Assembly: GCA_016648135.1 (NCBI GenBank)
Contig: JADDOH010023043.1
Location: 62,001 to 126,000, forward strand
Source of the DNA: Agrypnia vestita
Taxonomy: Eukaryota; Arthropoda; Insecta; Trichoptera; Phryganeidae
Direction of reading: 5' to 3'
DNA length: 64,000 nucleotides
The translations under genes were made by a program, and so were the position numbers. Positions 30,906 through 61,800 of the stretch are shown one piece after another (positions within the stretch are counted from its first letter, which is position 1; each line of letters begins with the position of its first letter). The notes beneath the pieces are model-generated. The model was given only the letters and a program-made list of their open reading frames with translations. It did not search any database and was not told the origin of the DNA.

Positions 30906-31175
30906 AAAGAGTTAAGGTTGTTATTACGGTCGTTAGACATATTTAACTGTAACTGGTTGCGGATATTTCATACGAACCGTATGTTTTTCCGAGAAACGAT
31001 TCTCGACGTTTCGTTGAATTCTTATTCAACGTCATCAGGAGGACGACCTTTACCCGCGGAGGTAGAGGGCGGACTGATTACTGTTTTCGAGGGCGTAAAT
31101 TATATGCACTTTGTTGTGGAGTGTTCACTTCTTCTACAATAGAGGTCGCCAGTGTGCAATATGTACTAGTTACGT
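30906..31175 (-). repeat. Hammerhead-bearing repeat, family B, copy 1
   Basis: Shares long blocks with 52572-52845: AGAGTTAAGGTTGTTATTAC, ATACGAACCGTA, TTATATGCACTTTGTTGTGG and GTGTGCAATATGTACTA (plus-strand sense). The ribozyme motif reads on the minus strand, so I take that as the element's sense strand. No protein coding is seen. Probably a terminal region of a Penelope-like element. Confidence 0.65.
31001..31043 (-). ncRNA. Hammerhead ribozyme motif (family B)
   Basis: Minus strand: CTGATGA (31038-31032), one unpaired C, stem II GTTGAA/TTCAAC with loop TAAGAA, then GAAAC (31012-31008) and GTC with predicted cleavage after the C. Stem III is the self-complementary ACGT, too short to close in a monomer, so a dimeric form is expected. 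Stem I pairs GAG with CTC (3 bp). Confidence 0.7.
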
Positions 31176-31229
31176 CGGCGGACTTTTAAGTAATGACTAT
31201 TAACCAAAGTCCCCTGTAAGGTGAGCGCG

Positions 31230-31245
31230 TGTGCGCGCGCACACC
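31230..31245. repeat. 16-bp alternating purine-pyrimidine palindrome
   Basis: GTGTGCGCGCGCACAC is a perfect palindrome of alternating purines and pyrimidines, the type that can adopt Z-DNA. Outer bases AGGTG/CACCT also pair. Confidence 0.8.
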
Positions 31246-31249
31246 TAGC

Positions 31250-32628
31250 AAAATGTCTCCGCACACATGTTTTACCCTCCGCACAGTCAATATTGTAAAA
31301 TAAAGTTTCCTTTGCCAGATTTTAGTTTTGCTCGAATGCATGAAACAATACATGCACAATTCTTTCGCACGCTTTCGGAGAAATAAGTCGAATAATACAA
31401 TTTTACCTATTAATTATATAAAATTTATCCCCTTAAAATGTTGAAAAGGAGTGGATGTGGCGATCATTAAGAAGAAATCCTGCGATAAATTTAAACTGGA
31501 ATGTCTCTCTGAAATCGTCGAAACAAAAATGCCATCTTCAATGCATTTACAAAAAGTAACAATTGGTGAAATATTTGTTTATTGGAGACATATGATGGTG
31601 TCAAATGCATCATATGTTCCGAAGCAAATATGAAAAGTAGGTACAATAGAAATGCGACAAAATTCGGAGAAAGACTTTTTACGTTGTTGAAAATTTAAAA
31701 ATAATAAATTTGAATAAATGTGAAAAATTTACATTATTATAAATGTTTATTTTGAAGAAAAAAACACAACAAACAAATAATATAGATTCAATATACCTAA
31801 ATAAAAAGAAAATTCTACAAGTTTAGTATTTTATATATTATATTAACGAATATTTTTTTCTTTTTTAATTATTTCAAAAATTATCTTTGTTATAGCTAAA
31901 AATATGTGTGTTGTTACGATGCAAAAAAAACGCAAAATAAGTTTTTCTAGTAAGTAAGCAACCTTTTTTAAACTAAAAAATATGTATTTATTTGGAATAC
32001 GGGCTTACCAGGCAACTTTCCCCCGCTTTCTTCTTATCCCACCGCCACTGCACAGATGCGTCGAAGATCCGCACACACAATAGAAAAATTAGAGGGAACG
32101 TTGCTATTAACCTTTTCGAAATATGTAAGAAATTTTTGCCGTAGTATTTATATGCATATATATCTATGTATAAAATATATACATCTTTTTGTTTGTAGTT
32201 CTAAACAGCATAACCAATGTTTATGCCTACTACACGCCACTGCATTGGTTGGATCCATCAATGGCGATGGTTATTATACGTCACGTTCCATAATCATAAC
32301 TTACAATGTTTAATAAAATATATTATCACGTAATTGTAACGTAATGTGATTGATATAAAGCCAGTCATGGAAAAATTATACAATATATACATTACGTTTT
32401 ATGCTATAACAAATATATAGATGATGGAGGAATGTAAATTTGAGATTAGCATGAGATGAGTATTACAGATTAAATAAATAAAGATTTTTTTTTACATAAT
32501 TTACATGAGGAACTAATGACCGACCGAAGGGTGGTTTTGGACAAGGGATTATAATATGGGTGACATTTCTTCTATACCGGTGTTTTTACAATATTCTTCT
32601 TCTTTTTTATTCCATTATACTTAACCGG
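31250..32628. other. Non-coding stretch
   Basis: A 60-codon frame at 31451-31633 (KKKSCDKFKLECLSEIVET, then a frameshifted VKCIICSEAN) has the look of a zinc-finger-containing mobile-element protein, but I cannot name the family. The rest is AT-rich. Confidence 0.35.
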
Positions 32629-32629
32629 G

Positions 32630-32735
32630 TCGAGGGCCTATCTCGGGTTTTCACGGCCGTTCAGAATTTTCTGTGTATAGTTTTCTGGGATATTGTGCCG
32701 TGTATATGTGACCTATCTGGCCGACGTTTCGTATT
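32630..32735 (-). repeat. Hammerhead-bearing repeat, family A, 5'-truncated inverted copy
   Basis: Reverse complement reads GAAACGTCGGCCAGATAGGT, then ACACGGCACAATATCCCAGA and GGCCGTGAAAACC. This is the sequence downstream of the ribozyme in family A. It begins just upstream of GAAAC and thus lacks CTGATGA and stem II. It abuts, head to head, the plus-strand copy that starts at 32746. Confidence 0.75.
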
Positions 32736-32745
32736 CTAAACTAAA

Positions 32746-33165
32746 TAAATAAATATTAATAGGGATAACGGTCTTAAGTTAAAAACGGCGCTGCAGGATC
32801 AATTAAATCGACGATCCGCCCAGTCCGACATCCGACAGTAGATAAAACAGTGAAATAACGCCACAGAAAATCTTGACAACACGTGTCTCCGACACGGAAG
32901 CACAACACACTACATCAAGACATACACACCCTGCTTTCGACACGGTACTGCAGTACAGTACCTAACCTAACACAAACTTAGACATACCCTGACTTCGGAA
33001 TGGTATTGCAAGGTAATACTTAACCTACACTTCGACACACACTCATAATAATAGACCTGATGATGGACCCTGCAATGGGATCCGAAACGTCGTCCAGAGA
33101 GGTCACACATACATGGCAGAACATCCCAGAAAAGTATGTACAGAAGAGGGCCTATCTCTTCCATC
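32746..33165 (+). repeat. Hammerhead-bearing repeat, family A, longest copy
   Basis: Starts AATAAATATTAATAGGGATA and parallels the copy at 61500-61800 (AATATTAATAGAGATGATGG): ACGGTCTTAAGTTAAAAACG, GACTTCGG and GGTATTGCAAG blocks, the ribozyme, then AGAACATCCCAGAAAA. About 420 bases, non-coding. The length and the position of the ribozyme fit the terminal repeat region of Penelope-like elements; this is inference. Confidence 0.7.
33052..33097 (+). ncRNA. Hammerhead ribozyme motif (family A)
   Basis: CTGATGA (33057-33063), unpaired T, stem II GGACCC with GGGATCC (one mismatch, loop TGCAAT), GAAAC (33084-33088), GTC (33089-33091), predicted cleavage after 33091. Stem I pairs GAC (33054-33056) with GTC (33092-33094). 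Stem III is the self-complementary ACGT. Confidence 0.7.
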
Positions 33166-33360
33166 ATTCTCTGTCCTGTGCTTGGAACAAGTCTTTCCAT
33201 TTGCCATGTTCTTATGGGTCATACAAGAGTCGTTCTTCTCTCTTAAGAATGATTTCTACACACAGAATATGTTTGATTTGAAGTTTCCCCATAACAATAA
33301 AAATAGAACGCCAGAAAAAGCGTTACAAAATTTCTAAATATTTTGTCTTATATCCTATAG

Positions 33361-33860
33361 TCACCATGAAATTGTTCTAAGTAACCGTTTTCTTCTTCCT
33401 GGCACTGTCCCAACTAATTGCCAAGGTAGGCTGTTGGGGTCGGCTCTTCTTGTTCTCAGGCTGTACCTTCTTCGGTTCTGTGTGTCGCTTTCATCCAGGC
33501 CGTTTCTCTGTAGGACTTTGGAGCATTGGGTCATCCAGGAGTTCTTTGGTCTTCCTTTGGATGACTGTCGATGAAGTTCCATAAGTTGGTATGGTCTGGT
33601 GGTTTCCGTCTTATGTGCCCGTAGTATCTCAGCTGTCTTTCTTCCATCCTACTGTTTATGTCCGTGACAACCAGGCTTCCACGAATGTGGAAACTTTTAA
33701 TCATATCTTTTAGTGTTATTCCTGCCGACCATCCAAGTATTCGGGTTTCTGCTTTTTCAATTTGCCTAGAGTAGGAGTTTTACACAGTCCAGCATTCGGA
33801 GCCATACATAATCGCGGGTCTAAGTACCCATAAATTAAATGCTATATAGGTCTATACAAA
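33361..33860 (-). pseudogene. RTE-like retrotransposon R1-D, C-terminal fragment
   Basis: The minus-strand open frame starts MELHRQSSKGRPKNSWM, then VLQRNGLDE, DRR-like NRRRYSLRTRRADPN and WQLVGTVPGRR. Upstream, in shifted frames, are residues of the WYGH-RR----- type and an AWSAGI-like turn. The order MELH---RGRP---W-D---KDL...DR--WR---R-ADP is standard for insect RTE-like polyprotein ends. A second copy lies in opposite orientation at 55600-56010. Confidence 0.8.
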
Positions 33861-34689
33861 TGATCAAAACATTATATTATGGCATTTAAATAAAAATGAA
33901 TAATACAAGATGGCGGCCGGTCTGTCAATGTAGTGTGTCTAATTAAACAAAAATACAGCAATAAATTATTTCAGCCGTTGTGTAAATATTAAATATCTAG
34001 AGATAGTGTTGACCTTTGGCACCATTTAGATATGGGCCATGCATCACGCACAATTGAGTGTGTTTGGAACTGTGGAACGCAAGAAAAATAGAGGATTTTA
34101 TAATAATATATATGTCACGTCAACTTACAGTGCACATCATACAATTCGCATCATTTAAATACAAAACAAACAATATGAAATTTAATTATTTGATTTATTT
34201 ATTTATTTTAATTTTATTTATTTGTTTATACAGTAGATAGGGGAAGGTGGTGTCAAAAGTAACAAAATAGACATTCTGGTTTATAACAAAATAATTAACC
34301 GGTTAAATTACCTGATTTTTTTTTTCAAAGCACTTCCATATATTTAGGAACTAAGTGTATGGTTAAAAAAATTGAAGGTATTAAGAATTTTTGTTTATTT
34401 GAAAATTAAAAAAAGAAGAAAACTGTTACATTTGACACCACAGTGGTGTCGATAGTAACACTCGTGGTGTCAATTGTAACATAAGTCGCACAAAACATAA
34501 TGTATCTACTTATTTTTATTAGGTATATTTTTATGTACTAAATGACTATAAAGTTGTAAGATACATAAAAACAAAACAAATTATCTAATTATAAAAACCA
34601 AAATTTATAAAATAATTAGAAAAAAATCTAATTTAATATGCTTCCCTAAAATAATTTTAATACCGTGAAAGTATTTCAAATTGCTCAAT

Positions 34690-34919
34690 CATTATCAGAT
34701 TCACAATTGAAGCACATAATTTAATTGTTTGGTTTGGGCACAATTCTCATGCGCCCATAATTTAAAGGAGGAACGCTGGATCCAACCCTCTTTGCTTGTT
34801 GAATATAGTTTGGTACAAATTAAACATAAAGCATCATCAGTTTCTTCTTTTTTCTCGGTTATTATACAAGTTTTTGTTCGTCTTTTACCTTGCTTATTTT
34901 TTGCAGCTTTGTTACTCAA
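34690..34919 (-). pseudogene. pogo-like transposase, C-terminal zinc finger
   Basis: The 72-residue minus-strand frame holds CLICTKLYSTSKEGWIQ, then a serine-for-cysteine position and WAHENC. This matches the C--C...W-QC--C--WAHE-C finger that ends many insect pogo/Tigger-like transposases (one expected cysteine reads S here). The preceding basic stretch KQGKRRTKT is also typical. Confidence 0.75.
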
Positions 34920-35072
34920 TACGAAGGATTCCTTCTTATAAATGCAATCAGCTAATCTTTCGAAGCCATACCAACTTCATCCCAACCAGTGGGATATGTC
35001 AGAGTTGAGTTGTTGATGTTATTGGAGTAATAGTTGTTGATAATTTATTTTGACTAACAAACTAACTAACCA

Positions 35073-35520
35073 TCACGCCGTTTCCCCGCAGGGGTATGCA
35101 GAGGGGATTGAACACCACACTCTTCTATCCTGGCACACCACTTTTGCTTCGGCCACATTTATACATCTTCTCATACAAGTTCTACGGTTGTTTGCGGCTT
35201 TAAATAGGGCCATCCTCAAATACTTGTAGTATCTGATCGTGCCAGGTCTTTCACGGACGCCCTCTATTCCTATTGCTTTCAACACTCACCTCTTGTATGC
35301 ATGAGCCTCATGCAATTATGGCCAAAAAGAATCTGTCAAAGGAAGCAAGACTAGCGGTACATAATAGCGTTCTAGTGCCAACCCTGATGAATAGAAGTGA
35401 AGCCTGGAATTGGCAAAAGAGGAATGAAAGTAGACTGAATGCGGTGGAAATGCGGTCACTATGACGCTTGTGTGTAAAATCTTTAGTCGATAGAGTGAGG
35501 AATAAAAAAAATTAGAATTT
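35073..35520. pseudogene. Non-LTR element R1-C with inverted 5' segment, nested in the pogo element
   Basis: The minus-strand frame 35073-35285 gives the family C-terminus (MRRCINVAEAKVVCQDRRV, SAYPCGE), preceded by IEGVRERPGT. Immediately beyond it, the plus strand 35300-35464 carries the upstream part of the same protein: KKNLSKEARLAVHNSVLVPTL and SEAWNWQKRNESRLN. The two parts are adjacent but in opposite orientation, the signature of 5' inversion during target-primed reverse transcription (twin priming). The 43420-43860 copy shows the collinear order. Confidence 0.8.
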
Positions 35521-35574
35521 ATTAAAATTTACAGTAGTCAGCTAATTCTTTTTCTGATTAGATAAAAGCTTGTT

Positions 35575-35790
35575 GTGGGGTAAATATCCTAATACTGGGG
35601 CAGATCCATCTTTTTTGATGCGTTCCATGTATCTATGAGGAGATAGGTGTCATTTTCGATATGCTTGGCTGCTTTTCTTATTGACACGTTTCCATTTTTT
35701 TATAAAAATTTTTATAAAAGTGTGCCTTCTCAAAAGTTTCTTTGGATGTTTTTCCCCATTTGTATTTCGTTCTCTAGGTTTAACCATTTT
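35575..35790 (-). pseudogene. pogo-like transposase, N-terminal psq helix-turn-helix
   Basis: Minus-strand reading across two frameshifts: KHPKKLLRRHTF- then a segment equivalent to G-MSIRKAAKH-ENDTY, a Y-R--E-IKKDGSAPVLGYLP run. This is the arrangement of the psq DNA-binding domain at the N-terminus of pogo transposases, SIRKAA... followed by G--P-LG. It is the only N-terminal remnant of this element. Confidence 0.65.
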
Positions 35791-36479
35791 TAACAACCAG
35801 GAACCCAAAATGACATTAACTTCCAATTAGATTACATTATTATCTCGAAGGTGTCAATTGTAACATGTTACAATTGACACCCTTTACACTGTTACAATTG
35901 ACACCTTTCGCCACATTGCATTAAGGTTATGTTTTATCTTAAACTATTAAAAAAACCGTTAAAATATATACACATCATGATAATAAACAATATTCTGAAT
36001 ACTAACACACAATAAAACAATAAAAAATACTTACAATTTGACGAATACAAAAAGATGACTATTTAATGATTTTCTTACTTCACTAGGCCGAAATACGATG
36101 ATATCCAATATACCGATACTTTCAAACTGATATTAACGCAAAATGGCGTTCGTTGATAGCTATTGATCCCGTCTAATAGACGGTACTGCTTGTGCCATTA
36201 AAAGACCAATATTTAAAAATATACGGCGACTGTTACAATCGACACCTGTTACTATTGACACCACCTTCCCCTACATATTTTTTTTTATATTAAATTGATT
36301 CTCTATTATAACTTTTTTAGACATTATACTCCCCATAATATGAGCCAAAGCTCGAGCTTATGGGAGGAGTATTTACAAGCTAAATTAAAGTATAAAAGAA
36401 GAACTAAAGAATAAAAGTATAAAAAGAATTAAAGTATAAAGTATAAAAGAAAAACTACAGAATTAAAGTATAAAACAGA

Positions 36480-37567
36480 CATGTGGGCAATGTTACAATT
36501 CATCGTTGTCGAAAATCAAGGATTTGACTTTTTTCTTAAACTGTTCGTATTTTGGAATGTTCTTTTCGTGAAATTTGTTTTGCGACAACAATGTATTGTA
36601 CCATTTAACTCCCAAATATGCATAATGATGTTGTGCCATGGTGGTTCTTAAAGATGGTATCTTTATTTATCCCTTTGTTCTATGTCTACTACTCATACAG
36701 TCTAAGAGGTGAGATTTATTTATAAAATATTCTTTGTATATTTGGCATAGGGAGTTTGTTTTGTATATTTTTGTGAGTGACGGTACATTAAATTCTTGAA
36801 ATATACTTACAGTAGGATAGTTATAAGGTTTTTTGAGAATCGCTTAAATAATTATTTTTTGCATTATGATTAATGGCTGTACGGTGGATTTATAAGCCCC
36901 TCCCCACCCAATAATACCACACTGTAAGAGGGACTACACCAAGGCGTAATGCACCATTTTAATAGTATTTTTTTCAATATAATGCGTAGTTTATAAAAGA
37001 CATGGATCAGTTTTCTCAGTCGTTCCACGGTCAGATTGACATGGTCTTGCAATTTGACATGTTTGTCAATTGTAATTCCCAAATATTTAATGTTAGATTT
37101 ATGATTAATTTTAGTACACTCATTGTTGCATGTTACATTGTTTTTAGAGTTTATATAATGAATCGTTATATTCAGATTTTTGGGAACTTCTTCTTGGAGT
37201 GAGAAAGGGATGAAAAATGTTTTTCCCGAATTGAGTGACAGAAGATTGTCATCGAACCATTCTTAGATGACATTTATGTCATGAATAGCTGCAATACTAA
37301 TCCCATTCAATGTTTTATTTTCAAGATTATTGCAGTATCATCAGCAAAGGCTATAATTTCACCCCGAAGTGATAATTTAAACATTTGATTTATATAAATT
37401 AAAAATAAGATTGGTCCGATGACTGTTCCTTGTGGAATTCCGAATTCCAAAATTTCAGGTTCGCTTATTGAATGTTGTAGTTTGAGATCTTGACTTTTTT
37501 GAGTTAGATTGCTTTGTAGCCAACATCTAAGTTTTCCAACTATGCCATATATTTTATTTATTTTCAT
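36480..37567 (-). pseudogene. Jockey-like non-LTR retrotransposon: palm to C-terminus, decayed
   Basis: The minus-strand frame 37307-37567 gives IYGIVGKLRCWLQSNL, then GIPQGTVIGPILFLIYIN and IIAFADDTAI. The last two are the RT motif with GxPQGS-x-GP-LF and the catalytic FADD box. Further along, 36870-37082 continues with MGITIDKHVKLQDHVN and LRKLIHVFYKLR, the thumb region. To about 36480 the frameshifted remainder resembles the C-terminal domain. Stops and frameshifts make it dead. The upstream end, at 37568, is the axis of a perfect palindrome. Confidence 0.88.
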
Positions 37568-37606
37568 TCAGCAGCAATGAAAATAAATAAAATATATGGC
37601 ATAGTT
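37538..37606. repeat. Perfect 31-bp inverted repeat at the RT 5' break
   Basis: The 31-base arms (37538-37568 and 37576-37606) are exact reverse complements around the 7-base loop CAGCAGC. The left arm is the start of the RT frame in minus sense (ATGAAAATAAATAAAATATA); the right arm is the same coding sequence in plus sense. It is therefore a duplication-inversion at the element's 5' break. A second hairpin follows at about 37629-37668 (CTGTCTCAA/TTGAGACAG). Confidence 0.92.
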
Positions 37607-37899
37607 AGAAAAAATTTAGGGTGGAATATGTCTGTCTCAATAGAATAATCTTTCTTGAGACAGGCATAGTTTACAAATTAGTTGTAGAATTTAGATATTT
37701 ACAGTGTCTATTACGCACGATAACAAGCAATTATGTCATAATTTGAGTTAGAAAGGTAGGCGTATATAAAAAATAGAATAATAATTATACCAAAAATAGT
37801 GAAAAATAATAAAATACAAATAGAAATGAGTAAATAATAATGCATTAGTTTTTTTGGATTAGAACGACAGTTATACTTAAAAGAAACAGAACAGTTATA

Positions 37900-38055
37900 C
37901 TTAAAAGTCTCTCTATCGAAAAAATATTTTGTCACCACCAGGATATGAACCCAAAATTTTCTCTTACTTGAAGTCAGTCGGATGAATCTCATTGGTTTAT
38001 GTTGTAACAATCATGTCGATTGCTTTTTGCTAGGCCCTGCGGGTGTTTAGCTATC
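37900..38055 (-). repeat. SINE-like or Helitron-end-like repeat fragment
   Basis: The minus strand has a B-box-like GGGTTCATATCCTGG and, upstream, CCCGCAGGGCCTAGCA followed by AAGCAATCG. The latter phrase also stands immediately before and in the terminal hairpin of the Helitron at 12835-12860 (CCCGCAGGGCCTAGCAGTAA, then AAGCAATCG). It may be a piece of a non-autonomous Helitron. The tRNA resemblance is weak. Confidence 0.45.
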
Positions 38056-38540
38056 GCCCATTGCCTGCTGCTTTTCATACAATTTGGTTATTTTTTGAAA
38101 CCGGTAATGGCAAAACCGCACACTGCATACAGCGTTTTTGAAGTATTCATAATATAGATGATGCGTTGCCTTGTAGGTAGGTACTATATGCGTTCGAGTT
38201 TCATCCATTTCTACATTTCACATCCTGGCCCTTTTGTTTACTAGGACACTTAAAAATTCTCCACTTTTGCTTAGTGGGGAAATTCACGGAAAAAATGTTG
38301 GATCTAATGTCGCGTGGATCTTTTGTCGCATGGGCTTTTTGTCGTTGGACCAAATATCCGTGGACTTTTTGTGATGTAACTATTGGTAACGGATATTCCC
38401 CTATTTATTTATTTAATATTCACGGAATACCAACAGCACAACAAAGAAGCATAGAAAACATTAATATAATATAGATGGCCAATTACAGGTCTCCACTTTT
38501 AGAAATATGTTAATAATGATAAATATGTTATGAAATAAAC

Positions 38541-38755
38541 TTAGGCATGTTAAGAATAATATAACAAGAAAGAATAAAAATTTAAACAAAAGAAAAATAG
38601 ATACTTAATTAGTAAGCAGAAAAATATAGGCATGTTAAGAATAATACAACAAGAAAGAATAAAAAATTTAAGCAAAAGAAAAATAACTTAATTATTAACA
38701 GAAAAACTTAGGCATGTTAAGAATAATACAACAAGAAAGAATAATATATTTTTTA
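38541..38755 (+). repeat. Three-copy tandem repeat, ~84-bp unit
   Basis: TAGGCATGTTAAGAATAAT, then ACAAGAAAGAATAAAAA and CAAAAGAAAAATA starts at 38541, 38626 and 38708 (periods 85 and 82). The third unit is partial. A-rich, non-coding. Confidence 0.85.
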
Positions 38756-39706: not shown

Positions 39707-39818
39707 TTTCAGAGATTTAGCACCTAGATTCAGATCTCTCCATGAACACACAAATGAACAGTGGCAGTATCAGTGTATCTTTTTATCAACTGAGACAGAT
39801 CAAAAGTATTCAGACACC
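39707..39818 (+). repeat. 112-bp direct repeat, left copy
   Basis: TTTCAGAGATTTAGCACCTA to TATTCAGACACC is repeated at 41006-41117 with only a few substitutions (e.g. AATGAACAG/AATCAACAG). The copies are 1.3 kb apart and bracket the TIR element at 39855-40615 and the CCTAA-like tract. Confidence 0.9.
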
Positions 39819-39854
39819 TACACAATAGGCATGATGACAGAATTAAAGAATTAA

Positions 39855-40615: not shown

Positions 40616-40734
40616 TTTAAAGAATAAGTGATCTTGGAATAATCCAAGAATATGGTCCCGTTGTTCATACAATGAAAATAAGTATTTCACTATATAATTT
40701 AATGTCCTGTTAATTTAATCTAACTAAAATCGTA

Positions 40735-40825
40735 ATCTAAATTAAACAAACCAAACCTAATAACCTAACCTAACCAAACCTAATAACCTAACCAAACCAA
40801 ACCTAATAACCTAACCTAACCCCAT
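40735..40825 (-). repeat. Degenerate TTAGG-like tract, copy 1
   Basis: The minus strand reads TTAGGTTAGGTTATTAGGTT and TTTGG variants over about 80 bases. It ends in GGTTTGTTTAATTTAGATTA, homologous to the end of the tract at 45880-45975. TTAGG is the ancestral arthropod telomere unit, but the interruptions and shared flank mark this as an interspersed repeat. Confidence 0.7.
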
Positions 40826-41005
40826 ACATTGCCTATGAAATGTCGAAATGTCGCATTTCTCGAAACTTTAAAGTGTAATATCTTATTTAATACTTACTTT
40901 TTAAACGTAAATTATCTTTCATTTTGTTATTCGCACATTCAATAATATAGTGAAATAATCATTTTCGTTATATATTCAATGGAATCATTATCTTGGATTT
41001 GGCCA

Positions 41006-42590: not shown

Positions 42591-42985
42591 CGCCCTTATG
42601 GGCTTTTACAAATATACAGAATAAATTTTTTTAAAAATAACATAAGACAGTTAAAATAATAATACAGTTAAAAGTTACAATAATAATAGTTAAAAGGTAA
42701 TAATGATAATAATACAGAAAAACATGAGACAGATAAAATAATAATACAGTAGGTACAAATAATAATAGTTAAAGGTAAAATAATAATACAGAAAAATTTA
42801 TTGTCCATTTCCATTTCGTTGAGATGTAAACAATTGTATCAGCTTTGTCCTATACACAGTTATACTATCAGCAAAAATGTCAGAAAATATATATATATAA
42901 TATATTAAGGTTATAATTAAGACATTTTTCAAAAAAATATTGATTGTATTATTTGTATATATCTACTTATATTATTTAATTAATT

Positions 42986-43027
42986 ACGCCAACATGTTTC
43001 GGAAATACCTTTCCATCATCAGGGTGT
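42986..43027 (-). ncRNA. Hammerhead ribozyme motif (family E, minus arm)
   Basis: Minus strand: CTGATGA (43022-43016), unpaired T, stem II GGAAA/TTTCC with loop GGTA, GAAAC (43000-42996), palindromic stem III ACATGT, then T and predicted cleavage. Stem I ACACC against GGCGT pairs at four of five positions, with C opposite A in the middle. Confidence 0.7.
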
Positions 43028-43061
43028 TGTATATTTATATTGTTATTAACTTAGTTATACA

Positions 43062-43104
43062 ACACCCTGATGATGGAAAGGTATTTCCGAAACATGTTGG
43101 TGTA
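43062..43104 (+). ncRNA. Hammerhead ribozyme motif (family E, plus arm; best preserved)
   Basis: CTGATGA (43067-43073), unpaired T, perfect 5-bp stem II GGAAA (43075-43079)/TTTCC (43084-43088) with loop GGTA, GAAAC (43089-43093). Stem III is self-complementary ACATGT (43092-43097), cleavage is predicted after T 43098, and 5-bp stem I is ACACC (43062-43066)/GGTGT (43099-43103). All conserved core positions of a type I hammerhead are present. The loopless stem III implies action as a dimer or on tandem transcripts. Confidence 0.82.
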
Positions 43105-43419
43105 ATTAATCAAATAATATAATTAAATATATACAAATAATACAACCAATATTTTTTTTAAATGTCAATCTACAATGTTGCTGAATCAATTGAAAAAATA
43201 AGTAATTTTTCTTTTTGAAATGTACTGCAGTATCTTAAAATATCATTTCTAAGTTATTTTCACAATTTGTAGAACTGATTACCTCATAATTTATAGGAGA
43301 ATTCACAGGGGAATAAGTTTTATAATTATTTATGCGGAAAAGACGTGTGTGGCTTGAATGGCAAGTTGGAGTATGAAAGTTCAACTTATTCAGGGCAGTC
43401 GATATTATTGCGCAATATA

Positions 43420-45879: not shown

Positions 45880-45975
45880 GTTAGGATTTATTTGTTAGAT
45901 GAAATTAACTTAGGTTTGATTAGGTTAGGTTATTAGGTTAGGTTATTAGGTTTGGTTTGTTTGGTTTAGGTTACG
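45880..45975 (+). repeat. Degenerate TTAGG-like tract, copy 2
   Basis: TTAGGTTAGGTTATTAGGTT repeats, then GGTTTGTTTGGTTTAGGTTA. It is homologous in reverse to 40735-40825, including the flank TTACGATT. A third partial relative (GGTTATAGGTTAGGATTT) is near 44778. Confidence 0.7.
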
Positions 45976-47150: not shown

Positions 47151-47177
47151 ACCTACTACCAACAGCGGCCTGAGGAC

Positions 47178-47451
47178 GTCACGGAATATTTAAAATTTGA
47201 ATTACTTCGTCGGTATATGTAATAGGTACTTCAGTACGAATTTCGAAAATTTATGACAATTGGTTCACAGATGACAGCAAAATTCACAAATATATCAAAA
47301 TCTTGATTAAATTCGTCACAGAATATTTAAAATTTGAATTACTCCGTCGGTATATGTAATAGGTACTTCAGTACGAATTTCAAAAATTTGTGACAATTGG
47401 TTCACAGATGACAGCAAAATTCACAAATTTATCAAAATCTTGATTAAATTG
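47178..47451 (+). repeat. 137-bp tandem duplication
   Basis: GTCAC(G/A)GAATATTTAAAATTT to TCAAAATCTTGATTAAATT appears at 47178 and 47315 with about six substitutions. Head of interspersed repeat X (TTTTAATTCGTC...) follows at 47565-47650. Confidence 0.93.
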
Positions 47452-50645: not shown

Positions 50646-50650
50646 CGCAT
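50565..50650. repeat. Compound (TA)n/(CA)n/(TG)n microsatellite
   Basis: TATATATATA, CACCCACACACACA, a longer (TA)n and then GTGTGTGTGTGTGTGTGTC. The CA and TG blocks flank the TA run and make the tract nearly palindromic. Confidence 0.95.
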
Positions 50651-52560: not shown

Positions 52561-52571
52561 ACGATAATTTT

Positions 52572-52845
52572 TAAAGAGTTAAGGTTGTTATTACGGTCAT
52601 TGGACATATTTATGTGCTTAATAAAACGGATATTTTATACGAACCGTAAGTATATTTCACTGAGAAGAAAATCTCGATGTTTCGCTGAAGTCTTATTCAG
52701 TGTCATCAGAAGAACTTCCTATCACCGCGGAGGTGAAGACCGAACTGATTATTTCTTCCAAGGTTGTAAATTATATGCACTTTGTTGTGGAGTGTTGACT
52801 TCTTCTACGACTGAGGTCGCTAGTGTGCAATATGTACTAATTACA
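52572..52845 (-). repeat. Hammerhead-bearing repeat, family B, copy 2
   Basis: Matches 30906-31175: AAGAGTTAAGGTTGTTATTA, CGGATATTTTATACGAACCG, TTATATGCACTTTGTTGTGG, and GTGTGCAATATGTACTAATT. It is in the same orientation. Non-coding. Confidence 0.7.
52675..52714 (-). ncRNA. Hammerhead ribozyme motif (family B, copy 2)
   Basis: Minus strand: CTGATGA (52709-52703), stem II CTGAA/TTCAG (5 bp) with loop TAAGAC, GAAAC (52683-52679), then ATC as the cleavage triplet. Stem III is weakened (ACAT, not ACGT). Stem I pairs GAGA with TCTT, including a G-U. The core is intact but likely weaker than copy 1. Confidence 0.6.
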
Positions 52846-52859
52846 TCTTCGAGCTTTTC

Positions 52860-54105
52860 TCTGACGTCTCGTCGCATGAAATATAATAAAAAAATCCGTT
52901 ATATTTAACACATAAACCAATATAAATTACTTTATTTTCGTATTTTTTATTTTAAGCAACATTTCATTAACCAATCGTCATTACTTTAATGAAAATACAT
53001 AATATTGTGATGTTGCTATTTTAGAAAGTAGTCTGATATTAAAAACTATTTAGATTAATCAATTTATTATATCAATCTAACTCGCCCCCAAACTTTACAA
53101 ACCAACGCAGCCCTGTTTGTTCAGTAATAATTCTTTCACTCCATGTTTCTTAAATATAAACTAAACCCGTTCATTAGGAAAGAGGATTAGGTGACAGCGG
53201 AAGAATATCCCCCTCATGTAGGTTTAAGATACATTAATACTGCAGTTGAAGTAAGTATTCTTGCATATCTAAATCTTCTAGCAAAGAACATATTTTTTAC
53301 AAAAGACGTTGTTTTTTTTTAAATAATTTAACCGAGTGTCTCAAGTAAAAAAGGTTTTCTTGTAATAAAGCGTGACTACTACTAAGATATTATAATTTTC
53401 AGAGTATTTAGTTTGTTGACCTTTTTATAATTATTTAAAAAATTACAATATCGTGGTAATTTTTTAAGAAAAGTCAAACATATTGGAAATTGGGACCAGC
53501 AGTGGCAATTTTAAGTTCGCATTCTACCAATTACTGCTTTTCATGCAATTTGCAAGAAAAGTGAGTTTTTGTCGTATTGTACCAATTACTACTATTCGTT
53601 TTTCTACCAATTGCTGAGTCTATTATCTGTTCAAAATCTTATCATAAGTAGGGTACACGGTACTGAGATTTGTATCATCGTGTCCAATCCGTGGGTGCGG
53701 GCCTTTTAAAATTATTTGTTTACGAAATACTTTATTTTATTTCATTTTTATTCGGTCATCCATCAGGGAGACACAATTGATTGGTAGGACGAAATACAGA
53801 AAAAATATTTAAACGTCATCCACTGGATTGGAGTAGTCGTATTTGACAGTTCGTTCAGTGCGAAGTACGCTCGAGATGGCGGCCAGGTGTGCCCAGTCGT
53901 GAAATTGCGAAGCAATTAGTATCGAGCGAAATAATACTACGTATAAGAATTGGATAGATGTTAAAAAAATTTTCCCAAAAATATACATAATATAAAATTT
54001 GGACCGTATATGTCTTGTTTTTTTAATTTATACGAGTTTTCCGACACCGTGAATTTCACTTCACCGACAAATTTCATTTAGATAGCCGTACACCCGTGAA
54101 CGATC
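52860..54105. other. Non-coding stretch
   Basis: AT-rich with no gene or element recognised, apart from a CAATTACTGC/ACCAATTACTACT-type near-repeat around 53525-53615. Confidence 0.45.
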
Positions 54106-54109
54106 ACGG

Positions 54110-54350
54110 AGGAGGTTAATTAGATTAGATTAATGGTTCGCGTCTTAGCTAAGCCATGTTCTTACAATGTGTATCATAGTATATCTTTAACGGGCAAGGA
54201 AGAAGCGATGGTAGCTATACCGCTTTGTCGTCCGCGCGTGCGAGTTTCGAATCTTTTCCAGCCGTATAAATTAGTTTCTTAGCCATGAATTGCAGGAAGT
54301 TACGGAGTTACGGGACAGACAGGCAACGAAATTACTAAATTTAGATAAAA
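54110..54350 (+). repeat. tRNA-like-headed SINE, family C, copy 1
   Basis: Matches 63395-63635 in order: ATGGTTCGCGTCTT, then a tRNA-like stretch ending GAGTTTCGAATCTTTTCCAG (a decayed B box), then TTAGTTTCTTAGCCATGAAT and the tail TTACGGGACAGACAGGCAAC followed by GAAATTACTAAATTTAGATA. Confidence 0.65.
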
Positions 54351-54739
54351 AAGTACAAATCAAACGATTTTGGAACAGGCTTTTATGCACACTGAGCCAA
54401 TTGAATCCTTACGTGAAAAGCAGCAAACTCTGGATATTATTTCAACCAGGGGTGGCGCACGATCCACAAGCCCGCCATGGAATAAGGGTGGATTAGCCAT
54501 TAATGCAGGCATGTTACTGCCGATGGAAGGGTAGATGCTATCTGCGCGGCAAAGAGCATGCCTTTTAGAAATGCTATCAGATTTTAAGCGCCGTTATTAC
54601 AGCAGTTTACAAAAATCGGCTATTTACCTCGAATTCAAAGTTATTAAAAGCGACTGCAAGCAAATGTGGCTAAACGCCGAAATCTATAAACAAAATTAGT
54701 AAAACAAAATGTTATATATGTTATACCTATATAACCACT

Positions 54740-54860
54740 AAAAATTACTTTTGTGTCTACCGGTTTCGAGACGTAACCCGTCTCTTCGTCAGGACAACCA
54801 CCACACTAGCATGTAAATAACACTACAAACCACAACCATAGTATTATTTGCACACGAATT
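54740..54860 (-). repeat. Hammerhead-bearing repeat, family C, intact copy
   Basis: Counterpart of 49580-49700 in reverse orientation: ATACTATGGTTGTGGTTTGT, the ribozyme, and AAAAGTAATTTTTAGTGGTT. Only about 120 bases match. Confidence 0.75.
54753..54797 (-). ncRNA. Hammerhead ribozyme motif (family C)
   Basis: Minus strand: CTGACGA (54792-54786; the seventh core base is free to vary), unpaired A, perfect 6-bp stem II GAGACG/CGTCTC with loop GGTTA, GAAAC (54767-54763). Stem III is palindromic ACCGGT, cleavage is predicted after the A of GTA (54758), and stem I is TGTC/GACA (4 bp). The core is complete. GUA is an allowed though less favoured cleavage triplet. Confidence 0.8.
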
Positions 54861-55599
54861 TTTAAAATGTATTGTTATTCTATTAAAAATGAGTTCCAGA
54901 AGCGAAAAAATTGTTGTTAACTACATTTTTTTAAGGAAAATTAGTATATTTTTATTTTCTTGTGTATAAATGTTTTTTTTCTTTGTAAATAGTTTTTTGA
55001 TATTTTAGTGACATAAATCAAAAAAAATTAATCTTAAAATAGCAATAAAACATATTTTTCAAAGGCGAAATGCAAATGTCTAATTATCTCAAAATGACTT
55101 GAATGTTAGTTAACAACTTCTTGCCATGGGGTATTCAATTGTATTTAATAAAAAATACATTATGTTGTGTAAAAATACATTATACAAATACACAAAAAAT
55201 ACATAGAGTTGTTTATTAGTGTTGGGATTTTGTACCAAACAAGACAATAAAAAAGAGAATGACCGACTAAAATAAATAACATTTTGTTAAAATGTCTGAC
55301 CACAAAGTTATTGCTTTAAATACTAAAAATATGAATAATAAAATTAGTAAAGTTTATTCATATCATTTTTGGATATTTTTGTCACGGAATATAAAAGTAA
55401 AAGCATCTTCTTATAGTAAAGCACGACTTGTTACTTAGACATCATACTTTTTAAGAGTATTTTGTTTGAATTTATCGTAATTGTTTTAAAATTTGCAAGC
55501 TCGCAGTAATTATTTTAAATAATTTGAATGTAGATATTTGAATATTATTGAGTGTTCGAACCCGAAAATTCCTTTAAAATTTAAAAGAAATACCAGACT

Positions 55600-56010
55600 A
55601 TTGTTAGACGCGCTATAAGCTATAATGTATGGCTCCGAATGCTGGAATATGTATTACTCCTACTCTAGGCAACTTGAAACAGCTGAAATGCGAATTAGAT
55701 GGTTGGCCGGAGTATCACTAAAATATAGGTATAAAAGTACTCGTATTCGTGGTAGCCTGGGTGTCACGGATATAAACAGTAAGTTGGAGTAACAACAGTT
55801 GAGATGGTATGGGCACATAAGACGGAGACCATCAGACTACATGGTAAAGCAGGTAATGTCAATGGAGCTTCATTGACAGTCATCCAGAAGAAGACCGAAA
55901 AACTCTTCAATGTTCTCCAGAGAAACGGCCTAGATGAGAGTGACACCGAGAGTGGGACAGTGCAAGAAATAAGAAAAAGTCAAACACATTTGAACCCGTA
56001 ATGGCACCAG
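55600..56010 (+). pseudogene. RTE-like retrotransposon R1-D, C-terminal fragment
   Basis: Plus-strand reading across several stops: MYGSECWNM, QLETAEMRIRWLAGVS-like residues, IRGSLGVTDIN-K, then QLRWYGHIRRRPSDYMVKQV, MSMELH, S-RRPKNS, NVLQRNGLDESDTESGTVQ. The last part equals the minus-strand copy at 33361-33860 (KVLQRNGLDESDTQN). The thumb-to-C-terminal portion of the polyprotein is preserved, but mutated. Confidence 0.8.
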
Positions 56011-56844
56011 GTTATATGTACCAAGGGATTACATTAGTTCATGTCTATATATTTTGTTGGTCTCTGATTTGGATGGAAGAAGTCTCATCGCCGCGTTTTT
56101 CGGCACTGAATTATAAAGATTTAATTATTTATCGAAAACTAACAATTTTATTTAAAAATTGTGAATTAAAAAGGCATTTAAACTATTTATGTGCGTACGT
56201 GATATCTGGAAAATTACCCCCAAATTTAAGGGCTGTCCAAATTTATGGCCGTTTGCTCCAGATAATGATTTCAATTAAGTCATCATTTAATCGGTATTTC
56301 GTAGAGAACTGTAATTATGTGAGCGTATTTTACATGTTGTAAAAGTAACCACCGCTTAAAGAACATTGATTCAAGCGTTGTGTGCAACAATGAGTGGTGT
56401 TATTAAAATGGTGATTTTTTATTTTTATTAAAAAATATATAAAGGATCTAGAAAGCCTTTGAAAATTATATTAAAATTCACGTGAAATTTAGAAATTTTA
56501 CATTTGAGATTTTGAAAAGCAATTAAAGTTTAATAATTATTAATCAAAAAAATATGACATAAAATACAACTGTCTTCGTTACGTTTGTGTACATCTTAGA
56601 ATTTTTTTCCCTTATTTTTGTCAATATTCAATTTTCTTGTCTGTTTAGATAAGTTGTTTAAACTTTTGCAAATGTGTCGTGATTGTTCTGTTTTTATCTT
56701 AGGTGGAATTATGTGGTAGTTTTGATTTTGTCTTTTGTGTAATTGTATGTCTCTGTCATGTATTTCCGTATACCAATAAGATAAATGAAAGATGAATATA
56801 AATTTACTTAGATATTTTACATTAAATCACATGTGATAAAATAT

Positions 56845-57065
56845 TTAACCAATAATAATATTTCGTTGTCTTTCTGTCCGTAACTTCTTTCGTAATTTTT
56901 TTTTGTTTTTTAATTTTTTTTTCTTATTCCTTAGGACCTGGCCGATAACATAGACGAAATTTCCCCCTCCATTTTTACCCTATCCTCTCCCCGCGATACA
57001 TTTTCTATTCAAAACTACACCGTTTAGGAACCGACATGTAAAATTACGTCATTTTTGACGAATTA
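56845..57065 (-). repeat. Interspersed retroelement tail with a single minisatellite unit
   Basis: The minus strand runs from CGTCAAAAATGACGTAATTT (57061) through CGGTTCCTAAACGGTGTAGT and GGGGAAATTTCGTCTATGTT to ACAGAAAGACAACGAAATAT (about 56855). It joins the phrase CGTCAAAAATGACG seen at 44293 to the tail shared with 1900 and 63600, and carries one unit of the 15625-16010 minisatellite. Confidence 0.7.
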
Positions 57066-57137
57066 CTATTTACTAGCTAGTTAATAATAACATTTTTTTT
57101 TGTGTAGGATAGACTCCTAAAAAAAATCTTGATTATC

Positions 57138-57319
57138 CAAGGGGCGTGGAGTGAGAACATCGAAGCGTTACTTTTTCCTAAGCATATACTAAAAAAAAAA
57201 ACAAATAAAATATATATCTCGAAATTTTCCTAATATTCGGTGGGAAAAATATTTGATTTTGATATTTTCCCCAATATATGTTTACGTAAAAGTCATGCTC
57301 CAATGTTCTCACTACGGTG
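57138..57319. mobile_element. hAT-type MITE, family 1, copy 3 (aged)
   Basis: The left end AAGGGGCGTGGAGTGAGAAC and right end GTTCTCACTACGGTG are mutated forms of the family termini. The interior keeps ATGTTTACGTAAAAGTCATG. The flanks GATTATCC and GATTATTA-like are consistent with a decayed 8-base duplication. Confidence 0.7.
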
Positions 57320-58655
57320 GATTATTACATTACATTAAACCTATGTAATGAGCGTTTATAAGAGACTTGATGACCATATATAATTGTTACATATTTTTTC
57401 CTGTACTAAGTCATGTCTTCGAATGGTTAATGCTCTGTAAAATAATAAAATCATGTTAATTTCATCTGCGTCGTATAATTTCTGAGATGTAAGAGTTTAG
57501 AGGTACTGATACACATACTTATTTTTTACTTTAAAACTACCATGCTCTAACAACTGTACACACTTGCTTGTTATTGGCAGGCTTATTTTAATCATACTTA
57601 TGAATGAGCATGTTCAAAGCTAACAATCACAAACACATTCTTATTACTGGAATACTCTTGTCATAGAATAGAGACGCTCTTGTTCAAAATATAAATTTTG
57701 CAAACTGAAATAGAAAATTCAAGTGAACCAATAAATTTTTGATTTTAGTTTTAATAATTTTTATTATAAGATTTGAATAATTCATATTTTTTAGTAAAGT
57801 TTCATAAACATTATTTCTTGCTATATTATTTTTATATAGCGGTAACCGAGTATTCGACAGACATTCGTGATTCCTATAATAATGTTCTGTCATCTCCTCA
57901 ACGCGCCATATTATTTGTTTCATCTGTCGCAGACTGAGAAGATAGCATCAAAAATCGATACTAGCCGCGAATTACATTAGCATACTCACAAGCAAGCTTG
58001 TTCACACATGCTCAAAAGATACGCACACATGCACATGCTACTAAGTAGCAATAGCTCAAGAAGCTCAATTTTGCGCATGCTCACGTGCCACTAATGAGCA
58101 CGCTTATCAGTACACTATTTTCGTGATAAATTTTGATCATGCCCGCCGTACCTCGTACCGATTTTTAAGTCAAAAAATGTGACACATCGCATTGTTGCCC
58201 CGAGACCTTCAAATTGTACAAAGAAATTTATGAGTGGAAATTTTGAGCCATTAACCTGACGCGGTGGGGGCCGATTCTGCCCTGAAATATTACCCCGCTT
58301 TATTTGCGTCCATCCAGTACTGCGGACACAACGCCATGATTTATGGTGTTCTTGATAGAGCTCTCGTATCGATGGGTGAGATTTCAATTTCAGCCTCGAC
58401 CGGCCGTGACGTCACGGGATGCGGCGACCATCAGCGGGTCGTTAAAGAACTGGAATTACTTTCCCTTAATGAGGAGGCACAGAGTTGGCTAACGTTTTTA
58501 TGTCTGCAATTTCTGACTTTCAGTAATTGTTGTGAGTGGTGGTTTTTCACTCGGGATGGAGTGTACCAATTGCAATAAACACATCAACAAATAATAAACT
58601 ACGGCAATAACTTCATAGTTACCGTTTTCTTGATCGTTTTCTTGACACCTTAAAT

Positions 58656-59138
58656 CTGTGCTGTTCTGAAAATAGCAATATTGGGATGTCAGATCTTTAT
58701 CCCAACACTTAATAGACAAAAATTAAAATACAAAATATACGAGACGTAGGCATAAGTCGGTATTCGGCGAAGATTTGTATATTTTCACGTATCTTTGGTC
58801 TGTCAGCTGCCTTCCTCCGCAAACGTAACCTCACAAATAATAATTTTAAGCTTATAAAAAAGTATTATTTGACATGAACTTATTAATTTCTCTTCCCATA
58901 GCGTCCTTATGTAAAATTATGACAAAATTATCATTGTCACGGACCATAGAAAATATAAATATTGTTGGACTCTATTTATATTTGACGTTTGACGGTTAAC
59001 CGTGATGTATTCTTTCTCCCTCTGACCACACCACCGACGTATGCCTACATTTAGTTTATTTTTTTATTTTATTTTCATCTATTAAGTGTTGGGATAAAGA
59101 ACTTACATCCCAATACTGCTATTTTCAGAATAGCACAG
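58656..59138. mobile_element. DNA element with ~105-bp terminal inverted repeats
   Basis: Arms 58656-58762 and about 59032-59138 are reverse complements at most positions: CTGTGCT(G/A)TTCTGAAAATAG, TTTATCCCAACACTTAATAG, and GTAGGCATA(A/C)GTCGGT. The interior is about 270 bp and non-coding. The target duplication is not clear (AAT or similar). The superfamily cannot be assigned from the ends. Confidence 0.8.
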
Positions 59139-59528
59139 AATATGCGGGGTACAAAAGCGTGGGAACAAACACCCACAAAAAAAAAGTTTTAGTGAATTAC
59201 TATTATGTATAAAATTATAATACTATATATTACTATATAAAATGTACTGAATTCTACATTTTTTATATCTATCTCTTTCAAAATCATGTTTCCTATAAAT
59301 TTATAGGCTATTTATTCCCTATGAAATTCCGAATTCAGTACATTATAATTTAGTAATTCTCGATGACTGCATTAATTTTTTTTTGGATATTCCTGCCTTT
59401 GCTTTTTTACCATATATATATTATATAAGCTTAGAGCAATTTATTAACTCTGTTAGGGGTAAATTTGCGAGGTGACATACTTCCCCTAACGCATACGTGC
59501 GTACGTGCATATACACACACACACACAT

Positions 59529-59711
59529 TAGGCGCGTGCAGTGAGAAAAATGAAGCAAGACTTTTACGTAGATATATATTTTAGAAATTAAATATAGTAT
59601 TTATCTGACAGAATATTATAGTATGAATAATAAGGTATTATAAGATTATTTCGAGACAAAATATATGTTTATATAAAATTCATGTTTCAATGTTCCCACT
59701 GCACGCCTCTG
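59529..59711. mobile_element. hAT-type MITE, family 1, copy 4
   Basis: Begins TAGGCGCGTGCAGTGAG and ends CCCACTGCACGCCTCTG. It is inserted in a (CA)n microsatellite: ACACACAT on the left, ATACACAC on the right. The interior resembles copies 1 and 2 (CTGACAGAATATTATA). Confidence 0.8.
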
Positions 59712-60470
59712 ATACACACACATACATAAATAAAAAACAAAAATAAACCAACCACGACCAACCCGATAACCTATTTAAAATGTGTAAAATCTTACCGATA
59801 CAAAAAGGTACTTCAGTACAAACGGACACTGGGAGATTTCGGGGAGAAAAGGACACGCCCAATTGAATTAGGTACTACCTAACCTACACATATATTGTAC
59901 TCACCTGTAAAATTAGGGTGTCTTGTAATTGGACAAAGACTGTCTAATTACATCACTGGTTTATATGTGTTTGAGTTCGTAAGAATCATTTTGGAGTTCA
60001 TTAAAGTTATTGTTGTCTAATGCAATGAGGTAAATTTTTAGATACTTCTTCAGAAAGATTGTTTATTGTTGAAGGGAGATGCAATTTTTTTTTGTTTGTT
60101 TTCTGGTTAATATTTAATGCACAAAATCGGGAATTTAAACGTTATTTATGCCATTTTGTTGAATTATTTCCGCTGTAAAAACTATCAATGCGGTTTATAC
60201 AAAAAAAAAAAAATCTTTTTTAAAATAATCAAGATGTATTATAGACGTCTCGTATAGATGAAGCTATATTTTTATATAGAAAAGTAGATATGGAAGTCTT
60301 TTGGGGTGTTCATAGAGCTTACGACCTATCGTACGGCTGACTTAACTGATCACTTAACACAATGTAACGTTCACCATTTCCACCCATGATAGACCACCAC
60401 ATCTATCGATTTTTTGGAAGTTGTACATACATATATATTTTTTATTTATTTTATGTTTATTATTTTTTTT

Positions 60471-60632
60471 ACGCTTCAACAGGCCAAGACGCCCAATTAC
60501 AGAAGCGAAAGACATCACAAAGCACCCAAGCTTGAGTAAATCACATAGATTAATTGTGACCTCACCGGGAATCGAACCCGGAACCCTCGGTGTGGAAAGC
60601 CAGTGTCATGCCCATTGGACTACGAGGGTTTA
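60471..60632 (-). repeat. tRNA-derived SINE, family A, copy 2
   Basis: Minus strand: head AACCCTCGTAGTCCAATGGG with A box TAGTCCAATGG (60622-60612), then B box GGTTCGATTCC (60578-60568), CCGGTGAGGTC, body ATGTGATTTACTCAAGCTTG, and tail GTTGAAGCGTAAAAAAAATA. It differs from copy 1 (4813-4973) by a few dozen substitutions, so both are old. Confidence 0.87.
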
Positions 60633-60639
60633 ATTTACA

Positions 60640-61500
60640 CAACTTGCTTCGTATGTGAGTTGTATTTTTACTACTGCCACCTGCAGTCCAAAGCTTTTTT
60701 ATTCCCATAATCCAATACAGATGTCACTATTGATAATGAAGTATCTATTCTATATTTTTGATTTAATGTAATATGCAATCACTAATTATATTCACTAATA
60801 TCCAACCACCAACCAATAATAATTATGTCCAACCAAAAAGTTTACGTAAAAAATAACTAATTATTTGATTTACATGGGAAGCGTGAATATGCACCTCCAT
60901 AAAAAAAATCAAATCAGTCCTCAATAATACGCAGATGGCAAAACATATTTAAAAGCCTGTTATCCTAATTCGACTTACCCACGGGTCTGAAAACCGTCAA
61001 GGGTCCAGAAAGAGTGCGTCAAAAAAATCCTTAGAGACAGCCGCATTAAAGGATTAGTGCTTTTGAGATACGGTTGTGTATTGGACTTCGCTGGAGGTCC
61101 GTCTACTGAGGCAACATGTGTTTCTTGGCACTTTGTCAATTTTTTTGGCTGCAATCGATACTAGGGATCGATCTTAAACACCTGTCAAAGGCGGCGACTT
61201 AAATGCTCGCACATTTTGCTATTTTTTCATCTAGTCCAGAGAGCGTTTTAAAAATTATAATGCGTTATCCCCATCCCACAATAATAATAATTTCTAATGT
61301 CCATCCGTAACCGTAACTAGAATCTAATAGCTGAATTCATTCCGTTTTCAAAATTAGTATGTAACTGATCTTATTCCGTTTTCGTTATCAAACATAATAG
61401 TTTCGTTATTCGGATACCGGCCATCATTTTGCATTCGAACCGAAAATCCTTGGAAACCCTACGCGTCTTATCAAGGAAGCACTAGAAATCTACAAGCACC
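60640..61500. other. Non-coding stretch
   Basis: No gene seen. ATAATAATAATTTCTAATGTCCATCCGTAAC near 61281 is repeated loosely at 62430 (AATACTAATTTCGAATATCC), a sign of another diverged repeat. Confidence 0.45.
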
Positions 61501-61509
61501 CGATAAATA

Positions 61510-61800
61510 TTAATAGAGATGATGGTCTCAAATTAAAAACATCTTGGTATCCGGCGCTTCAATGTCAATCTCGTCGCAGACTCCGCAGAGATAGTGATCA
61601 GACAACGGATGAATCATACACACAACACAATACAACACATCATGACTTCGGCACGGTATTGCAAGCCGATACTTAACCACAACACCAACATTCACAACAA
61701 CATATCAACCCTGATGATGGACCCTGCAATGGGATTCGAAACGTCGGCCCGAAAGGTCTTAACAACACGGCATAATACCCCAGAAAACACACTTGAAGAT
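61510..61800 (+). repeat. Hammerhead-bearing repeat, family A, copy with core intact
   Basis: Parallels 32746-33165: TATTAATAGAGATGATGGTC, GACTTCGGCACGGTATTGCA, CTTAACCACAACACC, the ribozyme, AACACGGCATAATACCCCAG and AGTGGCCGTGAAAA. It is followed directly by a minus-strand retroelement tail (TTTCGTTGTCTGTC, about 61827-61850). Confidence 0.75.
61706..61750 (+). ncRNA. Hammerhead ribozyme motif (family A, copy 2)
   Basis: CTGATGA (61711-61717), unpaired T, stem II GGACCC/GGGATTC-like with two imperfect pairs, GAAAC (61738-61742), GTC (61743-61745) with predicted cleavage after 61745. Stem I is only CC/GG before a C-A mismatch. The core is intact but stems I and II are weakened. Confidence 0.6.

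Follow-up and report, generated by a model that had tools for sequence, protein, structure and literature searches.

Probable minimal hammerheads in Penelope-like elements of Agrypnia vestita and the head-to-head arrangement of their copies

A 64,000-nt stretch of the genome of the trichopteran Agrypnia vestita (contig JADDOH010023043.1, positions 62,001 to 126,000; hereafter the window, with positions counted from its first letter) contains seven short motifs resembling type I hammerhead ribozymes, which raises the questions of which elements carry these motifs and how the copies came to be arranged as they are. We find it very probable that the motifs are minimal, dimer-type hammerheads located in the pseudo-long terminal repeats (pseudo-LTRs) of several families of Penelope-like elements (PLEs), many copies of which are truncated and joined head to head.

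Hammerhead motifs and their helices

The core pattern CTGANGAN{8,30}GAAAC matches the window at seven places, which are precisely those where an earlier note on this DNA had claimed copies with both core blocks (33057, 61711, 43067, 43022, 54792, 31038, and 52709), while 100 dinucleotide shuffles give a mean of 0.53 matches and a maximum of 3. That note had also called the density unusual, which the genome count does not support. The same pattern occurs 91,135 times in the 1.32 Gb host genome (45,193 forward and 45,942 reverse), against 8,617 matches (4,482 and 4,135) for a control pattern read backwards, so the density of the window is ordinary for its host: the genome average of about one core per 14.5 kb predicts approximately 4.4 per 64 kb, and the Poisson tail for seven, calculated by hand, is about 0.16. 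Nor are the seven copies independent, as the cores at 42996–43022 (minus strand) and 43067–43093 (plus strand) belong to the two arms of one head-to-head insertion. These arms, at 42927–43033 (minus) and 43056–43162 (plus), are 107 nt long, 94% identical, and separated by 22 nt; cleavage in the right arm is predicted after 43098.

The anatomy that all seven motifs were said to share is present in part. By inspection of the flanks, both core blocks and an extra base ahead of stem II occur in 7/7, and in six of them stem III is a self-complementary run of 4 or 6 bases, after which comes a base other than G; these six include the minus-strand cores at 31008–31038 (stem III ACGT) and 54763–54792 (ACCGGT). 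The remaining one (52679–52709, minus) has the non-palindromic stem III ACAT and a mismatch at the decayed base of stem II. It belongs to the same repeat family as the 31008 core, which lies inside a 209-nt repeat (30979–31187) with 79% identity to 52650–52858. A bulge breaks stem II of the 33057 and 61711 motifs into runs of 3 bp, and stem I, judged by eye, ranges from 2 to 5 bp, the 61711 motif having 2 bp only.

Because loci were found by their core pattern, the core is not independent evidence, and the helices are the test. We aligned 19 distinct motif sequences, several of them from one family, leaving out 3 of 22 representatives (L070, L075, and L043; L numbers denote loci fetched from the genome). 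With one base skipped after A9, stem II is paired in 94.4% of cells, compared with 59.2% when the 3' letters are shuffled, and 29 cells are changed on both sides, compared with 8.0 in shuffles; compensatory changes, whose absence among genome-wide copies the earlier note had listed as part of a refutation, are thus present. Shifting the register by one column either way lowers pairing to 66.2 or 39.4%, and pairing in the textbook register, which has no extra base, is 52.6% against 44.2% shuffled. The standard pair 10.1–11.1 at the base of stem II is unpaired in 16/19 sequences; this pair is described as usual, not strictly required, and a natural U-U is known (PMC3088659).

Of 94 distinct exact-box motifs from the loci fetched, 84 form, with the extra base skipped, 3 bp or more of stem II. 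A self-complementary stem III is found in 73 of these 84; in four of the 73 it spans 7 nt around an odd center. Position 17, before the cut, was scored where stem III is clear (the other 11 of the 84 being left unscored) and is T in 42, C in 21, A in 10, and G in none of the 73, as the NUH rule predicts. In 46/73, stem I has its first three pairs formed; among 29 distinct versions, 12 are fully paired, against 4.1 (maximum 9) in shuffles, and they include GCC/GGC, GTC/GAC, ATC/GAT, CTC/GAG, ACC/GGT, TAC/GTA, and TCC/GGA. In a third set, the 104 motifs of the first-scan listing plus the window (three listed genome places left out), at least 4 pairs form past the extra base in 46 and 3 pairs in 18, and one motif is paired without it. 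We relied on the 104-, 94-, and 19-motif sets and not on a hand-picked set of 46 distinct motifs. The claim of type I minimal hammerheads in several families is supported by the covarying helices, the self-complementary stem III, and the absence of G at position 17.

Penelope-like carriers

A genome search with the Pfam GIY-YIG model gave 63 matches among the 150 scored of 4,793 candidates. Thirty loci were fetched, two pairs of them overlapping. In 22 of the 30, GIY-YIG is followed, 162–303 nt downstream and on the same strand, by a motif that resembles a hammerhead; such a motif may have up to one mismatch per box and a stem II of at least 4, and the count has no shuffle control. The exact core follows at 8/30. 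The window contributes a frame at 61401–61619, to which Pfam, applied to 10 of the window's 52 frames, gives no match on its own. Searched against the genome, all 150 matches scored of 9,025 candidates have E below 4e-36, the window included, with open frames up to 890 aa. In this family, the window's own, the motif follows the gene at 9/9 fetched loci (L099–L107, the six best matches and three that we picked, window included). The earlier note called hammerheads of this kind established for PLEs and retrozymes, and proposed a genome search for copies beside GIY-YIG or Penelope reverse transcriptase (RT); these loci support a PLE origin.

L105 contains a tandem element with an 890-aa frame that matches RVT_1 (E 9.6e-9). 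PF00078 is above its cut-off in both L105 and L106, and PF01541 (GIY-YIG) has an E of about 4e-4, with 20.9 bits in L105 (E 4.4e-4) and 21.0 in L106, below the cut-off of 22.6; RT and GIY-YIG thus occur in one gene at both loci, GIY-YIG slightly under the cut-off. Tandem or partial-tandem pseudo-LTRs are found on L105, and the other hallmarks of PLEs (an inverted pseudo-LTR, an optional tail, and short target duplications) are found as well, in agreement with the published anatomy as described in PMC11167929, PMC3846280, and PMC7761336. In L105, the one element examined for this, the repeat spacing is 2563–2564 and hammerheads at 556–587 and 3120–3151 are 2,564 bp apart, the first overlapping an ATG that lies in the reading frame. 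Other families have the motif, by eye, about 60–70 nt upstream of the apparent ATG. PLE hammerheads are thought in the literature to cut as dimers; that the short stem III implies dimer action, as the earlier note had it, agrees with this literature and with the two tandem hammerheads of L105.

With the L105 890-aa protein as the tblastn query, both protein ends are found in the window, at 61407–61634 (86%) and at 61537–61791 (82%; residues 1–85). The former marks a C-terminal GIY-YIG endonuclease fragment of a PLE frame (61401–61634, plus), and the core at 61711–61742 (plus) lies in the pseudo-LTR after this fragment, where it overlaps the beginning of the next N-terminus. Further N-terminal pieces occur at 33024–33128, 32977–33024, 32730–32641, and 366–497, the last (plus strand, 57% to residues 63–104, E 3e-7) outside the reported interval of 30906–61800. 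No RT core is found in the window by tblastn with four PLE protein pieces, of which the three shorter ones, from other families, give no match there at all. The statement that the window lacks a Penelope RT thus holds for the RT core, but PLE coding remnants are present.

Several observations weigh against reading the motifs as hammerheads of PLEs. First, 39 motifs of the 104-motif set lack a 3-bp stem II adjoining the core; chance matches account for some of these, and decayed or bulged copies for others. Second, Rfam reports no hammerhead family, either in the window at the gathering score or in 29000–64000 with E allowed up to 10. The earlier note would have counted a lack of covariance-model hits as part of a refutation, yet stems I and II covary, and taken in that sense the absence misleads; a hammerhead type abundant in the host genome goes unreported here by Rfam release 15. 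Third, none of four single window copies forms a full hammerhead as a monomer when folded, which is expected for dimer-type motifs and is also short of proof. In single-sequence folding of 11 sequences, z is below −5 only in four stretches with long inverted structure; among the other four window stretches, which do not include 52709, 30958–31088 has z −2.6 and three are no better than shuffles. We infer self-cleavage from sequence, which also counts against the reading. Fourth, no direct repeat of at least 10 bp flanks 14 of the 45 head-to-head pairs described below, including the window pair 42996/43067, whose 8-bp candidate repeat is no better than chance.

Finally, GTAAC replaces GAAAC at 14 of the 30 GIY-YIG loci (L011–L013, L016, L018, L021, L024, L025, L028, L030–L032, L034, and L035), making this the commonest family there, with many similar copies. 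A change at A13 abolishes hammerhead activity, and the GTAAC core is expected to be inactive. Since at least one family apparently spread with this core, hammerhead cleavage may not be needed for insertion, which agrees with an in vitro finding that cleavage is unneeded (PMC11167929).

Head-to-head insertions and their templates

Outward-facing motif pairs are abundant genome-wide. With a spacer of 20–50 there are 2,398 forward and 2,366 reverse matches, against 10 and 4 for the control, and with a spacer of 51–81 there are 983 and 975, against 9 and 7, where one pair may score on both strands. A listing of tandem motifs at short spacing consists largely of an upstream GAAAC of one family or of head-to-head pairs, and was not used as a tandem count. 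Among 64 listed junctions, the join varies between loci of the same family, which points to separate events and not to copying of one palindromic unit. Some junctions, such as those of L084 and L094, contain partial arm repeats, as if the polymerase had jumped repeatedly.

We examined 45 pairs for outside direct repeats, six of 40 fetched pair loci not having been parsed as pairs (L068, L072, L077, L078, L081, and L088). Direct repeats of at least 10 identical bases flank 31/45 pairs and repeats of at least 12 flank 24/45, compared with 137 and 17, respectively, of 1,980 mismatched flanks; those flanking the pairs are 10–17 bp long. The two copies of the repeat lie at unequal distances past GAAAC in 30 of the 31, one at 50–70 nt and the other at 85–118 nt, and with slightly wider bands this asymmetry holds for 30/31 against 44/137 mismatched flanks. 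All seven long insertions (L107–L113) have repeats of 13–14 bp, and six are asymmetric. The window supplies a further example around the 33057 core. Its right arm carries the hammerhead core (33057–33088, plus), which, like that of the intact PLE family, overlaps an ATG, and its left inverted arm (32645–32734, minus; matching the right arm over 32669–32734) keeps the GAAAC box but not CTGANGA. A 13-bp direct repeat, a candidate target-site duplication, lies at 32632–32644 and 33146–33158, 81 (by hand) and 57 nt past GAAAC, the left being the longer "tail" end.

Taken together, 37 of the 39 insertions with direct repeats of at least 10 bp (the 31 pairs, L107–L113, and the window 33057 insertion, with the 14 repeat-less pairs excluded) have one tailed and one untailed end. 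The exceptions are L109, with tails at both ends (99 and 94 nt past GAAAC), and L075, which fits neither class. L115 and L116 are also head to head, but in both too little sequence lies beyond the right arm to look for a repeat; L117–L119 lie outside the count.

The mechanism of PLE insertion is described as little understood (PMC11167929), and thousands of head-to-head pairs, whose ends, repeats, and alleles record insertion, allow self-priming and two-sided initiation from two RNAs to be tested by counting. A course of events that would connect what we observe (the association with RT and GIY-YIG, the helices, the paired anatomy, the repeats, and the single tail) begins with an intact-looking tandem element, which would yield one transcript with two hammerheads one unit apart. 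Judging from published work, the very short self-complementary stem III would permit efficient cutting only when two copies pair, and such cutting would reduce the tandem transcript to units. Many genomic copies are 5'-truncated and thousands are joined head to head; at each end of such an insertion RT would have started once, on one of the two target strands and at one of two neighboring RNA sites, and the cDNAs, sometimes from two RNAs, would then be joined. We tentatively propose, as a possibility that falls somewhat short of an even case, that a large share of PLE insertions are two coupled RT starts from the sides of a staggered break, with different RNA start sites and, at least sometimes, two templates, the cDNAs converging and joining head to head to leave outward hammerheads and one tailed and one untailed end.

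A rather unlikely alternative is fold-back self-priming, in which one cDNA snaps back and copies itself, so that both arms share one template. Penelope elements of rotifers have been read in this way, with an antisense template in that case (PMC3846280). Here it would account for junctions that are often near-perfect palindromes with small loops (6 or fewer in 21/64), and for long pairs whose arms are cut at nearly the same place (768/769, 1635/1649, and 2072/2078, three of nine with L108 left out as complex). It should, on the other hand, give two tails, against the one tailed and one untailed end of nearly all insertions with repeats.

The alleles on the two arms bear on the templates more directly. 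In the seven long insertions of the first family, the arms have 9,195 positions in common and are unlike at 63 of them; 36 of the 63 differences are private, involving an allele found in no other locus, which is also as fold-back predicts. At segregating sites (both alleles in two or more other loci), discordance between arms amounts to 20 of 190 comparisons (0.105), and that between loci to 0.152 (247 pairs). This argues against a shared template, though 15 of the 20, which comprise 6 CpG transitions, 12 other transitions, and 2 transversions, fall at four neighboring sites (reference 1954, 1971, 1989, and 2013) and are not independent. The insertion is for this reason the better counting unit. 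Three of these sites (1954, 1971, and 2013) occur in two common versions, and the arms carry opposite versions in 4/5 informative long insertions (L107, L109, L111, and L113), the same version in L110, and a partial mix in L108; L112 does not cover the trio. The version does not follow the tail. Opposite versions suggest two templates, since an arm copied from its partner cannot give them without later gene conversion, and conversion may have occurred.

Other comparisons favor fold-back or divide evenly. Two insertions were compared in a second PLE family, and each of them looks like a single lineage, with 3/47 discordant against 0.241 between loci, which argues against two templates; the reference for this test itself holds an inverted arm, and pseudo-LTR positions were counted twice. 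The three long pairs cut at nearly the same place are L109, L111, and L112, and the junctions of L109 and L111 look hairpin-like, although the arms of these two differ in alleles. Among short arms, the own partner is at least as close as any other in 20/38.

Relation to known systems and other features of the window

Cervera and de la Pena (2014) and Lunse et al. (2017) are said to have described PLEs with minimal hammerheads in their pseudo-LTRs. The elements of those studies are alike to ours in their type I core, very short stem III, pseudo-LTR position, RT and GIY-YIG gene, and expected dimer action, and there is no class-level difference; here the copy number is very high and many families share one genome. 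The extra base between A9 and stem II is present throughout our motifs.

In the Poseidon element PAc of Anolis carolinensis, the start codon directly follows hammerhead G8, as here, and the tail lies between two RT start sites, as tails are generally explained in the literature; both target strands are cut and extended in vitro (PMC11167929). From C3 and G8 before that start codon, we infer that PAc has the same extra base. The evidence for PAc comes from in vitro work and reads of one family, whereas ours comes from the ends of natural head-to-head insertions. Penelope elements of Adineta vaga are described with an inverted pseudo-LTR, one optional tail, 8–10 bp duplications, palindromic junctions, and head-to-head order, as found here, but in few copies (PMC3846280), whereas our count extends the one-tail rule to 37/39 insertions, and alleles of different copies are present on some arms. 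Published work thus already describes minimal hammerheads, inverted pseudo-LTRs, and optional tails in PLEs, and the additions made here are the one-tail count and the template test. Neither was found in the open-licence literature searched, and the papers of Cervera and de la Pena (2014) and Lunse et al. (2017) are outside that literature.

Animal non-LTR retrozymes, short non-autonomous hammerhead repeats moved via small circular RNAs, are a very improbable alternative to PLE hammerheads. They share type I hammerheads in repeats and occur in animal genomes, with co-occurrence of PLEs described, but consist of tandem repeats of about 170–400 nt with circular RNAs (PMC7229834). Our motifs sit at PLE ends, and no tandem array in the window covers any of the seven, so that tandem monomers of about 150–400 nt with a hammerhead each are not found there. 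It is just as improbable that the motif is kept as DNA or coding sequence (the start codon and first PLE residues in the GGACCC family) and not as RNA: the ATG within the motif, read in frame in L105, and the amplification of one family with GTAAC would fit, but the compensatory changes in stems I and II, the self-complementary stem III, and the lack of G at position 17 extend across families, including those in which the motif lies, by eye, upstream of the apparent ATG.

The window contains several other features. A 137-bp unit occurs twice in tandem with 96% identity (47177–47450), and arrays of AACCT and TTAGG units at 40749–40821 and 45910–45973 lie in opposite orientation 5 kb apart; we take TTAGG to be the insect telomere motif, and such arrays would point to an insect or other arthropod. 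A tRNA match of 35.9 bits (60557–60629, minus) falls within a 109-nt repeat (4862–4970 and 60519–60627, 84%) that looks like a tRNA-derived short interspersed nuclear element. A 170-aa frame at 23451–23960 (minus) contains a NAC domain (E 1.1e-22) and is probably a BTF3-like gene or retrocopy. Two frames tested from 10194–11453 (plus) gave nothing significant with Pfam; by eye, the frames of this region resemble the Helitron helicase region.

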